42,156 nucleotides of DNA from Candidatus Staskawiczbacteria bacterium (lineage in GTDB: Bacteria > Patescibacteriota > Minisyncoccia > Minisyncoccales > Staskawiczbacteraceae), in contig JAPLZF010000012.1 in assembly GCA_026395175.1 (NCBI GenBank), positions 1-42,156 of the forward strand. The letters are read 5' to 3'. Position 1 is the stretch's first letter, and each line of letters starts with the position of its first letter. The notes beneath the pieces were generated by a model, which made no database searches, was not told the DNA's origin, and saw nothing but the letters and a program-made list of their open reading frames with translations. The translations under genes were made by a program, and so were the position numbers. Below are positions 2,436 through 35,480 of the stretch, in pieces.

Positions 2436-2550
2436 GGGACATGCCCTTCTTTCAAATCATTAGTCGAATACAGAATAAATCGCAGAATAGCAGATTTTTC
2501 AGAAATTAAATTAAGTTCTTTAGTGATTTGAAAGAAGGGATGTGTGTCCC
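2436..2550 (+). promoter_or_regulatory. Structured leader (long inverted repeat) upstream of GC-rich orphan gene
   Basis: gggacatgcccttctttcaaatca (2436-2459) is the near-perfect reverse complement of tgatttgaaagaagggatgtgtgtccc (2524-2550). Confidence 0.7.
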
Positions 2551-2612
2551 TCAAATGGAAATGTTCCGTGCCGGTGGTCGGTGCGGAGTTCTACCGATGG
2601 AAGGGAACTGCA

Positions 2613-3122
2613 ATGAACGAGATTCTGGTTGTGCCACGTCGTTTAGGGTGTGTCGCTTGGATATCGAACACTCTGATGGTCCCGCTGATGTATTTTTTGG
2701 CGGGAACACTGCGGGAAAAACCGCAACAAACCCACCCTTGGACATGCCAGCGGTTGAAACCAGACGAAGCCACCCGTATGGAGGAGTCAGCAATGGCTCA
2801 TCTCACGGCCGTGGGAAAAGCGATCCAACACCATCACTGGTGGGATCCGCGGTTTCACATGCCAATCTTCACCGGTTGGCGGCAGTACGCTGTCTTAGAC
2901 AGCATGTTTGGCGGACCATGGTACGTAGGTTGGCGAGTGTCCGGTGGAGAGACCGCCGAAGTATCCCGTATGTCGCAAGTTGGACCCATCAGGGTTCTGC
3001 TCGGGCCGAAGGACGTTTCGTTCTTTGGCGTTGACGACAACGGCGTTCAAGTTCCGATTCACCAAATCGGCGGAGGTCGGATAGGCGATGGCGGGCCGTT
3101 CTCACAAGTTCCGCTTTCATAG
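2613..3122 (+). CDS. Hypothetical protein of GC-rich orphan cassette (alternative GTG start at 2544)
   Basis: MNEILVVPRRLGCVAW...PWYVGWRVSGGE...GPIRVLLGPKDVSFFGVDDNGVQVPIHQ; GAAGGGAA Shine-Dalgarno-like stretch upstream of ATG 2613; own promoter and terminator. Confidence 0.6.
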   Translation: MNEILVVPRRLGCVAWISNTLMVPLMYFLAGTLREKPQQTHPWTCQRLKPDEATRMEESAMAHLTAVGKAIQHHHWWDPRFHMPIFTGWRQYAVLDSMFGGPWYVGWRVSGGETAEVSRMSQVGPIRVLLGPKDVSFFGVDDNGVQVPIHQIGGGRIGDGGPFSQVPLS

Positions 3123-3238: not shown

Positions 3239-3280
3239 CTAGGTTCACAATCTACGCTATCGCGTAGTTATTGAACCTAG
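3239..3280. repeat. Palindromic repeat A (left of PaaX/Cas2-like gene)
   Basis: CTAGGTTCACAATCTACGCTATCGCGTAGTTATTGAACCTAG; CTAGGTTCA/TGAACCTAG and TACGC/GCGTA arms. Confidence 0.85.
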
Positions 3281-3306: not shown

Positions 3307-3843
3307 ATGAATGCAATTAGAGAAAAAATTTTATTGCTTTTATTGGGCGGGGTTGCTTTTGGGTATAGCATTACGCCCGGCAAACAAAGAATGGTTTTAA
3401 GAACTATCTCAAGAGAATGGAACAAAATAAACAAGAGAGAATTAAGAGAGGGGATTAAATATTTATACAAATTAGATTTTATTGATAAAGATGTTTCTAA
3501 AAATGGGTTTGTGAAATTGTCTTTAACTAAAAAAGGCAGGTTGAAATTATTGAATTGCAGGCTGAATAATCTTAAAAACAAAAAAGTTAAATGGGATGAA
3601 AAATGGCGAATGGTTGCCTTTGATGTTCCAGAAAAATACAAAAGCGGAAGAGATGCTTTGCGTCGAAAATTAAGGTCTGTAGGATTTTGCGAACTTCAAA
3701 AGAGCGTTTTTGTAACGTCAATTGATTGTGAAAAAGAAATAGAATCGCTGGTTAATTTTTTTAGGCTTGAAAAGTATGTTCGTTTCGGAGTTTTAGATAA
3801 AATTGACAATGAAAAACACCTTAAAAAATTATTTAAATTATAA
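3307..3843 (+). CDS. PaaX/Cas2-like protein (winged-helix-like N-terminus plus ferredoxin-like Cas2/PaaX domain)
   Basis: WDEKWRMVAFDVPEKYKSGRDALRRKLRSVGFCELQKSVFVTS resembles the PaaX central/Cas2-like domain; ATG 3307 preferred over the TTG at 3271 inside the palindrome. Confidence 0.65.
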   Translation: MNAIREKILLLLLGGVAFGYSITPGKQRMVLRTISREWNKINKRELREGIKYLYKLDFIDKDVSKNGFVKLSLTKKGRLKLLNCRLNNLKNKKVKWDEKWRMVAFDVPEKYKSGRDALRRKLRSVGFCELQKSVFVTSIDCEKEIESLVNFFRLEKYVRFGVLDKIDNEKHLKKLFKL

Positions 3844-3870: not shown

Positions 3871-3910
3871 CTAGGTTCACAATCTACGCTATCGCGTATT
3901 TAGTGAACCT
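3871..3910. repeat. Palindromic repeat B (right of PaaX/Cas2-like gene)
   Basis: CTAGGTTCACAATCTACGCTATCGCGTATTTAGTGAACCT; first 28 nt identical to repeat A. Confidence 0.85.
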
Positions 3911-19396: not shown

Positions 19397-20368
19397 TTAT
19401 TTTTTGTCGGGGTCGGAGTGGAATTGGTGGTGGATGTCGCGGAGGCGCTTGTTGGTTACGTGCGTGTAAATTTGCGTTGTGGCAATATTACTGTGGCCTA
19501 AAAATTCTTGAATGCTTCGAAGGTCAACTCCTTGGTTTAGTAAATCAGTAGCGTAACTGTGGCGCAATGTATGAGGTGTGGTAAAAATTGGCACGCCAGA
19601 AAGCAGAGCATATTTTTTTACCATGCGTTCTATAGAGCGTGGAGTTAGCCTGGCATCTGCATCATCCTTTTTATCACGAAAGTTTATAAACAAAGCTTTT
19701 TGGTTTGCGTGCTTAACATTGTTTCTTATTTCAAGATATTTTCTAATAAAGTTTAATGCGCGTTCAGAAAAATAAACCACGCGGGGTTTCCCGCCTTTTC
19801 CAATAACGCCCAGTTCCATATCCTTTTTATTTTTTATGCTGTTAAACTGTTCAAGATTTAAAGCAGTAAGCTCGGCAATGCGAAGTCCGGTTGAGAAAAA
19901 GGCCTCTAAAATAGCCCTGTCCCGGGTGCTAATATCATCTTTTGGCTCAATAGATGCTAAAAGCTTGCTAACCTGCTCTAAAGTAAGGAATTTTATGCTT
20001 TTTGAGCCCTTATCTGGCTTTGAGAGGGCTATTTTGTCTGGGGGCAAGGACAAGACGTCTTTTGCCACAAAGTAGCCCAAATACGCCCTTAGGGCGATTA
20101 AATAGTAGTTCTGGGTGCCTTTAGACAGCAATTTGCCGGTGGCGGGGCTAGGCTGGCGGGAAAGGTATAATCTATATGCCCAAATGTTGTCGGCGGTCAG
20201 TTGATGGGGGAGAAGTGAGCTATTTTTCTCCTGGTCTAGCCAACCAAAAAATTTTTGCAAATAATTTTTATAATTCTCCTGAGTATTTTTTCTCAAACCT
20301 TTTTCAACCTCGCAAAAGTCTAAAAAATCTTGCAGGTGGTTTATAATTGGTTTTGATGATTTCTTCAT
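19397..20368 (-). CDS. Tyrosine recombinase, XerC/XerD-like
   Basis: STGLRIAELTALN, TPHTLRHSYATDLLNQGVDLRSIQEFLGHSNIATTQIYTHV. Confidence 0.9.
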   Translation of the reverse strand: MKKSSKPIINHLQDFLDFCEVEKGLRKNTQENYKNYLQKFFGWLDQEKNSSLLPHQLTADNIWAYRLYLSRQPSPATGKLLSKGTQNYYLIALRAYLGYFVAKDVLSLPPDKIALSKPDKGSKSIKFLTLEQVSKLLASIEPKDDISTRDRAILEAFFSTGLRIAELTALNLEQFNSIKNKKDMELGVIGKGGKPRVVYFSERALNFIRKYLEIRNNVKHANQKALFINFRDKKDDADARLTPRSIERMVKKYALLSGVPIFTTPHTLRHSYATDLLNQGVDLRSIQEFLGHSNIATTQIYTHVTNKRLRDIHHQFHSDPDKK

Positions 20369-22416: not shown

Positions 22417-22440
22417 AGTCAGGTTGTCGTACGGCAACCT
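22417..22440. repeat. Palindromic repeat P1, left 24-bp terminal inverted repeat
   Basis: AGTCAGGTTGTCGTACGGCAACCT. Confidence 0.85.
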
Positions 22441-22630
22441 AATGCTTTATAATAACCTTTAATTTATTTAAATCAATGTCCTTTTTAAAAATTATGAAAT
22501 CTCTTCCCATCTTCATTGCCTTGATTGAACCATTGTGTATTCGTTTTAATACAGATTGCTTGCTAATTCCCAGAATAACCACTAATTCGTTTGTCGTATA
22601 AAAGTCTTTTTCTTTTATTATTTTACTCAT
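22439..22630 (-). CDS. Small HTH DNA-binding protein (excisionase/MerR-like)
   Basis: MSKIIKEKDFYTTNELVVILGISKQSVLKRIHNGSIKAMKMGRDFIIFKKDIDLNKLKVIIKH; ATG 22630 preferred over TTG 22654 in the palindrome. Confidence 0.75.
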   Translation of the reverse strand: MSKIIKEKDFYTTNELVVILGISKQSVLKRIHNGSIKAMKMGRDFIIFKKDIDLNKLKVIIKH

Positions 22631-22637
22631 GTTTTTC

Positions 22638-22657
22638 AGGTTGTCGTACGACAACCT
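22638..22657. repeat. Palindromic repeat P2 (perfect 20-bp palindrome between the two accessory genes)
   Basis: AGGTTGTCGTACGACAACCT. Confidence 0.9.
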
Positions 22658-24401
22658 AAGCTACTTCGGTGTTGTAACACTGTTCGCAATATACTATCTC
22701 GGGACGGTCAGGAGAATAACTAGTCTCAAATTCGTTAAGGCACTTTCCACTATGATGCGAATGATTCATGTTGCACATGCACTGCCGATGCCATAATTTC
22801 ATTGGATTTCTTTGCTCTATTCTTTCTCCGTGTCTACAATTTGGACAAAGTCGTGGAATAGGAATTTTTAATTGACGATAAAATTGTAATTCTTGAGGTA
22901 CCATACGAAAAGCCTTTGAACATTGGTGTTTGCATTTGCCAGCGTGTATACAACCTATTATTTCATTAGTAATAGAATCATCAGCAACTTCGATGTCAGG
23001 GATTACCTCTGGTTGTAATGTGATATCATAATTATTTTGTTTAACATCACGCCAATTAAATCCTAATTTTTCTGCTTTATCTTTTTCAAGCGGGAAAAAT
23101 TCTTGTGCGGTGGTTTCATTGTATCCGAATGGACTCATTTTAACTGGAAAAAATTCTCCATAGCGATATATTCTACCTTTGTCATCAATATATGGGTTGT
23201 TATTCATTTGGTCTATAATAGTTTGACGCAATTGATAATATTCCTCTTGCGGGTATTTCTTATTTAGGATGCAATATTCTTTTTTATTCATGCCCATAGA
23301 ACCAAATATATTTTTGCTACCTACGCTAAATGCACTATATTCAATATCATAGCAGTTTGTAACCGCCCACCAAGCAAACCGTATACGTGATGCTTGGTCT
23401 CCCGACTGCATAACTTCATAAAGCAAAGAAGAGTTAATCCCGAAATTTATAAAATCATATGCGTCTTTTAATCCAGGAGAAGTCACAAAGGAACAAAACT
23501 TGCAATCCTCGGCATTACCCACACAATAAGAATTAAGGGTATTTTTTGAATCAAAAATATAATCTCCACTAACATTATTATTACGAATTCCGTGCATATA
23601 TTTATTAGGGAATTTCAGCCAAAATTCACGTGCCTTTCCTTTTGCACTAACGATATCATTCCAAGTGGTTGTATTTTCCTTAACAAATTTTTCAAAATCT
23701 TCTTTAGAAACTGGGTTATTATAGACGCAATACTTCTGATTCTTAAGATTAACGCAACCAAAACAATTCTGGCAGCCGATACAGTTTTTTGAAAAATATA
23801 TATTATTACATTCCTTACAGTCTTGCGAATAAAAAGTTTTATAACACTTGTTGCAGTTTATTGTGTCATAGCAAAGTTCACCCTCCTCTAACATAAGATT
23901 GTCCACGCTATCCTTTGTGTGATTAACAAAACTACCATAAGTAACATTTTCACTATAATCACTATAAGTTATCATGTAGCAATTTTTTAAATAGCTTACC
24001 ATATTTGTATAATCTGAATTCACGAGCGTTGTATAAAGACCATAAAGACTTGGAACGGGTACTTTATGCAAAAGTTCTTGAAATTGAGCAAGAAAAGGTT
24101 TTTTAGGGTTAAAATTAATTCCATAATCAGTGGCATCCCAATCATCGCCCCACCAACAGGGATTGCAATAGACTACAAATTTACTGTCTGGAGAAAAAAT
24201 AGAAATAATACTTTTACTACATTTAGCACAAGTGTGCCTATGAAGCGTCCTCTCATTACGCCAAGCCAAACGCCTTACTAAGCGACATTCAGGGCAAAAG
24301 GTTGGTGCTGGAACTTTTATTTTTTCGTAAAACGCAAAATCATCGGGCTCTATTACGAACTCCTTTTTACAATTCTGACATACCTTAATTTCTTGTTCCA
24401 T
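22656..24401 (-). CDS. Duplicated zinc-ribbon / Cys-rich repeat protein (family often labelled 'CaiB/BaiF' in CPR genomes)
   Basis: N-terminal CQNCKKEF...APTFCPECRLVRRLAWRNERTLHRHTC...FSPDSKFVVYCNPCW and C-terminal CKHQCSKAF...IPRLCPNCRHGERIEQRNPMKLWHRQC...YSPDRPEIVYCEQCY are copies of one domain; Cys-rich repeat core. Confidence 0.7.
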   Translation of the reverse strand: MEQEIKVCQNCKKEFVIEPDDFAFYEKIKVPAPTFCPECRLVRRLAWRNERTLHRHTCAKCSKSIISIFSPDSKFVVYCNPCWWGDDWDATDYGINFNPKKPFLAQFQELLHKVPVPSLYGLYTTLVNSDYTNMVSYLKNCYMITYSDYSENVTYGSFVNHTKDSVDNLMLEEGELCYDTINCNKCYKTFYSQDCKECNNIYFSKNCIGCQNCFGCVNLKNQKYCVYNNPVSKEDFEKFVKENTTTWNDIVSAKGKAREFWLKFPNKYMHGIRNNNVSGDYIFDSKNTLNSYCVGNAEDCKFCSFVTSPGLKDAYDFINFGINSSLLYEVMQSGDQASRIRFAWWAVTNCYDIEYSAFSVGSKNIFGSMGMNKKEYCILNKKYPQEEYYQLRQTIIDQMNNNPYIDDKGRIYRYGEFFPVKMSPFGYNETTAQEFFPLEKDKAEKLGFNWRDVKQNNYDITLQPEVIPDIEVADDSITNEIIGCIHAGKCKHQCSKAFRMVPQELQFYRQLKIPIPRLCPNCRHGERIEQRNPMKLWHRQCMCNMNHSHHSGKCLNEFETSYSPDRPEIVYCEQCYNTEVA

Positions 24402-24421
24402 GTTTTTGTCTTGAATTATTC

Positions 24422-24445
24422 AGGTTGCCGTACGACAACCTGACT
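24422..24445. repeat. Palindromic repeat P3, right 24-bp terminal inverted repeat
   Basis: AGGTTGCCGTACGACAACCTGACT, exact reverse complement of 22417-22440. Confidence 0.85.
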
Positions 24446-35297: not shown

Positions 35298-35480
35298 TTA
35301 TTTTTTTGTTTTTACCTTATTAAGAAAATTATTAAACTCCTCTTTGTCTATTCTAAACTCCTTGCCGATTTTATAGGCTTTTACTTTTTTCCGCTTAATG
35401 TAGCGGTAAATTGTCATTGTTGAAACCCTTAGCCTTTCCGCCAACTCCTCAACAAGATAAAATTCTTTTTCTTGTGCCAT
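35298..35480 (-). CDS. Excisionase-type HTH protein
   Basis: YLVEELAERLRVSTMTIYRYIKRKKVKAYKIGKEFRIDKEEFNNFL. Confidence 0.8.
   Translation of the reverse strand: MAQEKEFYLVEELAERLRVSTMTIYRYIKRKKVKAYKIGKEFRIDKEEFNNFLNKVKTKK

Follow-up and report, generated by a model that had tools for sequence, protein, structure and literature searches.

Palindromes around a two-gene insertion between murG and gltX of a Candidatus Staskawiczbacteria genome are very probably sites of the small HTH protein that it encodes

In a 42,156-nt contig of a Candidatus Staskawiczbacteria bacterium (GenBank assembly GCA_026395175.1, contig JAPLZF010000012.1; this whole stretch is hereafter the window), two genes stand between murG and gltX, and three near-identical palindromes lie at the ends of the block and between its genes. 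What are these palindromes, and how did the genes that they enclose reach this junction? The original prediction was a palindrome-bounded mobile or cassette-like module with no known transposase. The features of the block are as follows.

22417..24445, minus strand: the whole inserted module, bounded by a 24-bp inverted repeat
22421..22440: P1, palindrome AGGTTGTCGTACGGCAACCT, with one asymmetric base
22439..22630, minus strand: 63-aa HTH protein, excisionase family TIGR01764, Pfam HTH_17
22638..22657: P2, perfect palindrome AGGTTGTCGTACGACAACCT
22656..24401, minus strand: 581-aa Cys-rich protein (cargo), with CxxC motifs at both ends
24422..24441: P3, palindrome AGGTTGCCGTACGACAACCT, an inverted copy of P1

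P1, P2, and P3 lie where the original prediction had placed them, letter for letter, and were the sole matches in the window at up to three mismatches (expected 0, 100 shuffles). P1 and P3, described there as exact reverse complements, extend to an inverted repeat (22417-22440 and 24422-24445) that is 24 bp long and 100% complementary, asymmetric base included. In the direction of the genes, the order is murG, P3, Cys-rich gene, P2, HTH gene, P1, and gltX, so the palindromes do enclose the two minus-strand genes as claimed. The following ATG is 20 nt from P3 (Cys-rich gene), 7 nt from P2 (HTH gene), and 16 nt from P1 (gltX), and the TAG stops overlap the next palindrome, that of the HTH gene lying in P1 and that of the Cys-rich gene in P2.

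The gap between murG and gltX is 2,065 bp here, whereas gltX comes directly after murG in 11 relatives. In 10 relatives of the genus, gltX starts within a dozen or so bases of murG; the eleventh, G004, has murG on two contigs, and its 3′ part also leads directly into gltX. Relatives without the unit have no palindrome at this junction. The comparison indicates that the two-gene block is an insertion between murG and gltX. Its exact breakpoints are unreadable because the nearest MurG is only 84% identical, and, as had been noted before, no target-site duplication is visible at the junction.

For the HTH protein, profile scores exceeded the curated cut-offs (30.2 bits vs. 28.8 and 32.1 vs. 27), and the predicted recognition helix spans residues 24-33 (KQSVLKR). 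The predicted fold resembles RacA, Xis, RdfS, BldC, and MerR proteins, with no match at E < 0.001. A second, diverged HTH homolog (36% identity) is encoded in the window at 35310-35480 on the minus strand. The Cys-rich protein belongs to a large paralogous family and gave no match to anti-phage models; its predicted model (pLDDT 32) was unusable for assigning a fold. Tandem arrays of this family occur in several genomes, each with roughly a dozen genes or more that are spaced by a few tens of bases (for example, G009:C10:13925-39827 and G006:C21:30503-53168), and two further copies lie at G000:C2:13688-17231.

Besides the trio in the window, the same genome holds three more palindromes of the P1-P3 type at other places, as well as palindromes with the same AGGTT...AACCT ends and different interiors; AGTC is a frequent extension of these palindromes. 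The pattern GGTTRNYNNNNRNYAACC matched 14 sites in this genome, where its reversed control matched 1; among the 36 family genomes scanned, some had 2-15 matches and others 0-2. These numbers follow the HTH gene: 13 genomes with close HTH copies have 2-15 palindromes, and 23 genomes without, a class that includes G013, G014, G015, and G024 with weak HTH matches only, have 0-2. One genome departs from this, as G001, rated 100% complete, has kept perfect or near-perfect GGTTATC and GGTTAAC palindromes (for example, C15:51237, C11:10153, and C24:604), yet a cognate HTH gene was not detected. The original prediction had proposed to search CPR genomes for the palindrome and relatives for an empty murG-gltX site, and had named as contrary outcomes a block fixed in all relatives and a palindrome found nowhere else. 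Both searches succeeded and both contrary outcomes fail: relatives lack the block at this junction, and further copies of the palindromes were found in the same genome and in its relatives.

In a scan of 85,462 species, the exact palindrome was repeated in Ca. Staskawiczbacteria and occurred once in a Nealsonbacteria record. The remaining matches were single and scattered and probably reflect chance, and we rejected a wide spread of the palindrome. A literature search, by titles and abstracts, returned nothing relevant on palindromes, cassettes, or integrons in CPR/Patescibacteria.

Repeats of other kinds were also seen. Two 38-nt palindromes of another type (AGGTTCA...CTACGC TATC GCGTAG...TGAACCT), at 3241-3278 and 3873-3910 of the window, bound a single gene (3307-3843) with weak PaaX/Cas2 similarity, and further palindromes of this type occur in G000 at C6, C9, and C15. 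An imperfect inverted repeat near 2436-2550 (GGGACATGCCCTTCTTTCAAATCA / TGATTTGAAAGAAGGGATGTGTGTCCC) precedes a G+C-rich stretch at 2544-3122 (55.6% G+C vs. 37% for the window) that matches no family. Another recurrent intergenic palindrome type has a T-run first and an A-run last, such as TTTTTGCCTCGAGGCAAAAA, a polarity that is wrong for an intrinsic terminator; examples are in L015 (3260-3291 and 4039-4074), L056, L125, L144, and L005 (4192-4223). Clusters of CGCTTAAGCGGTACCGC-like palindromes lie beside a gene for a 225-236 aa protein (MNNNDFLTIQEFIQKY...) in L131 (G006:C26) and L138 (G007:C5).

We then compared the HTH proteins with the palindromes beside their genes. The family was searched with the HTH protein, not with the palindrome, which yielded 22 close copies and more distant ones. 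All 25 HTH units compared had a 20-bp palindrome upstream, and 20 of them also had one downstream, which in two or so lay beyond an adjacent cargo gene. A KQS or RQS helix pairs with the half-site GGTTGTC or GGTTGCC, RIS or RVS before FKR with GGTTAAC or GGTTAAT, KVS with GGTTACC, and RVA or RMA with GGTTATC; where FYR replaces FKR, the half-site is TCTTAAC or CCTTAAC. Across the 25 units, the recognition helix correlated with the half-site (Mantel r = 0.73), and this held after the distance of the rest of the protein was removed (partial r = 0.75); none of 20,000 shuffles reached either value, the palindromes and HTH counts having been transcribed by hand and one 21-bp site trimmed to 20. The rest of the protein had no positive partial correlation with the half-site, and the covarying residues map to the predicted recognition helix. 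The two sites of a unit had their inner half-site in common in 16 of 20 cases (4.0 when shuffled), and within a class they shared their centre in 12, compared with 6.4 expected (p = 0.0003).

Because the helix and the half-site covary, the inner half-sites are shared, and palindrome counts follow the HTH gene, we conclude that the HTH protein very probably binds the 20-bp palindrome, with a specificity that tracks the recognition helix, as for an autoregulated HTH protein. The original prediction was sound in so far as the block is inserted, bounded, and cassette-like; its palindromes are very probably sites of the HTH protein inside the unit rather than the bare ends of a mobile element. No two HTH specificities within a genome are alike (p = 0.026), which is what circuits insulated from one another would show. 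No earlier description of this pairing was found in the openly accessible literature that was searched.

How mobile is the unit? The HTH gene with a palindrome on either side (P-HTH-P) recurs at various loci in related genomes, sometimes with cargo: it is placed before gltX in the window, before gatB and lepA in G005, and before Cys-rich genes in G007 and G032, among others. The sequences indicate that P-HTH-P has crossed genera, often together with cargo genes. Between two genera with 49% identity in GrpE, the GCC-type HTH is 90% identical, and the P-HTH-P stretch of the window has 75% identity over 244 bp to one at a different locus in another genus. A second junction with empty and occupied states is folA-gatB, which has no insert in five genomes, including the one studied here; in G005 it holds HAD and then P-HD-P-HTH-P. 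Two of these palindromes lie in a direct repeat of 62 bp (93.5%), and this repeat also includes a copy of the folA 3′ end. More generally, 10% of same-locus palindrome pairs share direct flanks (extension score of at least 10), compared with 0.5% of pairs between loci.

The palindromes were rejected as a general means of gene insertion. The gap between grpE and dnaK is empty in G014, G015, and G030 and filled with cargo elsewhere; palindromes were present in 10 of the 21 genomes examined, and the island has cargo both with and without them. Since accessory genes also enter operon junctions that lack palindromes, insertion need not be driven by the palindromes. In G000:C6, the grpE-dnaK junction (L262 498-5151) carries an accessory island with palindromes of three types; the island encodes an HD protein and an EcoRI-type methylase, and after the latter comes a gene for a type II restriction enzyme. 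No recombinase, transposase, or integrase was found tied to the palindrome units, in keeping with the original "no known transposase"; a Xer-like tyrosine recombinase gene at 19397-20368, 2 kb from the unit, is a candidate by presence alone. The palindromes may promote gain and loss, or they may just be carried by modules that move in other ways.

A plainer account, possible although we do not think it probable, is that the palindromes are operators of a small autoregulator over accessory genes, with ordinary horizontal transfer and no boundary role. Order-level HTH homologs would suit it: in most, a single palindrome lies some 12 nt past the first base of a TTGAC box, which reads as an ordinary operator in the promoter, and their genes often stand before a Fic-like gene or carry a fused ATPase-like domain (both names were given from the sequence alone, not by profile). 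So would the HTH copy that three genomes of the genus carry ahead of an ftsE-like gene, with a palindrome upstream only, and the palindromes themselves lie a median of 38 nt ahead of the next start codon, some being followed by promoter-like -10 boxes. Against this account, a place in the promoter of the HTH gene, clear in the order-level homologs, is not recognisable for the dispersed sites: TTGACA occurred 0 times in 4,320 nt upstream of these sites, compared with 10 times in 12,903 nt of palindrome-free gaps, and TATAAT was not enriched. The previous stop is about as near to the palindrome as the next start, and the genes that follow the downstream site are unrelated housekeeping genes (gltX, gatB, lepA, and tgt). 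With mechanical gene calls, 104 of 113 dispersed sites fell between co-directional genes, compared with 228 of 288 gaps, and 3 of 113 between divergent genes, compared with 31 of 288 (p = 0.009). Because of this preference for co-directional genes, the rarity between divergent ones, and the missing TTGACA, a site that is bound inside operons and gates read-through would fit the dispersed sites better than a classical operator.

Three other accounts are less probable. That the palindromes are attachment sites of a site-specific recombination cassette, with the HTH protein akin to an excisionase or directionality factor and a host Xer-like recombinase acting in trans, appears unlikely. The HTH protein is in the excisionase family with Xis and RdfS among its nearest folds, units are bounded by sites, one-sided direct repeats occur, and the Xer-like gene is close by; however, plain regulators have that fold too, the units have no linked recombinase, the murG-gltX junction of relatives that lack the unit has no palindrome, and a single recombinase would hardly tolerate half-sites that vary between units. 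RNA hairpins (for termination, processing, or stability) or REP-like hairpins of a Y1 transposase are very improbable. The palindromes do fold as hairpins, yet 62% have a fully self-complementary centre, which a hairpin loop does not need, and G-T and A-C pairs in the sense strand numbered 16 vs. 7 (p = 0.09), no clear preference. A known structured RNA was rejected because no Rfam family matched, terminators because P1 and P3 drew just weak calls, and a REP/RAYT system because several palindrome-rich genomes, namely G005, G008, and G010 (13, 5, and 6 palindromes), have no Y1 match. Least credible of all is a composite transposon whose terminal inverted repeats would be P1 and P3. Their perfect 24-bp inverted match, asymmetric base included, speaks for it, but AGTC is a common extension of these palindromes, and the unit shows neither a target duplication nor a transposase. 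Inverted flanks were found in 0 of 78 same-locus pairs, and the inverted P1/P3 pair is an exception because other loci share direct, never inverted, flanks.

We therefore lean, with some reserve, towards an acquired, self-recognising regulatory module that consists of the 63-aa HTH protein and its own sites, copies of which may serve as recombination breakpoints. The HTH protein would recognise the 20-bp palindrome via its recognition helix, most simply as a dimer that places one subunit on each half-site, a step strongly supported by the comparison across units. A P-HTH-P unit, here with cargo, was inserted between murG and gltX, its HTH protein probably descending from ordinary autoregulators with a site in their own promoter. 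Since the dispersed sites lie between co-directional genes, away from recognisable promoters, we propose that bound HTH most likely acts as a gate or a block to transcripts that would run on into the HTH gene, the cargo, and the gene beyond. The site copies, sometimes in longer one-sided direct repeats, may be points at which modules are gained, duplicated, and lost by recombination; these last two steps draw on the position of the sites and a few repeats. Counter to this explanation are the G001 palindromes without a cognate HTH gene and the inverted P1/P3 of the window, as elsewhere the repeats are direct. A bolder reading, which we hold rather doubtful, is a new kind of gene cassette in Patescibacteria with palindromic bounds set by an internal 60-aa HTH protein, the pairs diversifying to orthogonal specificities and the sites aiding insertion and loss.

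Several known systems resemble parts of this module. Small excisionase/MerR-like HTH proteins (TIGR01764 and HTH_17; RacA, BldC, phage Xis, and RdfS) share the family score and the short winged-HTH fold, and a palindromic promoter site is likewise seen in the order-level homologs; unlike them, the dispersed copies are flanked on each side by a matched site that lies away from promoters, and their half-sites have diversified from copy to copy. Nearest by form are dRS3/NIMEs of Neisseria. These 20-bp intergenic repeats, whose inverted ends are conserved, lie around genes in some cases and are proposed recombination points; dRS3 (ATTCCC N8 GGGAAT) has ∼700 copies, one type being a phage integrase target (PMC3898611). 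The sites here are likewise 20 bp with conserved inverted ends; unlike dRS3, they have AGGTT/AACCT ends, not ATTCCC N8 GGGAAT, and 2-15 copies rather than a high copy number, and each type matches the HTH protein encoded between two copies. Integron cassettes are likewise mostly promoterless-looking genes split by palindromic sites of differing sequence, but the unit here carries its own DNA-binding protein and has no integron integrase nearby (the Xer-like protein reaches 107.9, below the cut-off of 265), and neither attC core box (RYYYAAC and GTTRRRY) occurs in the AGGTT...AACCT sites. REPINs are palindromic intergenic repeats whose number tracks one protein gene, a transposase (PMC8049555). 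The palindrome number here also tracks one protein gene, although that protein, of the HTH type, has no catalytic domain, and Y1 transposases are not required. Compared with inverted-repeat transposons, the 24-mer is present, but duplication, transposase, and inverted pairs at other loci are not.

Overall, our analyses connect a repeat family with the protein by which it is very probably read, in a lineage that is known from little other than its sequence. If the sites direct the gain and loss of accessory genes, they would provide a route for gene swapping inside the operons of reduced Patescibacteria genomes. The 25 matched proteins and sites look like a natural code by which one of the smallest HTH folds recognises its sites, and this series of helices and half-sites is open to bench testing without the organism.
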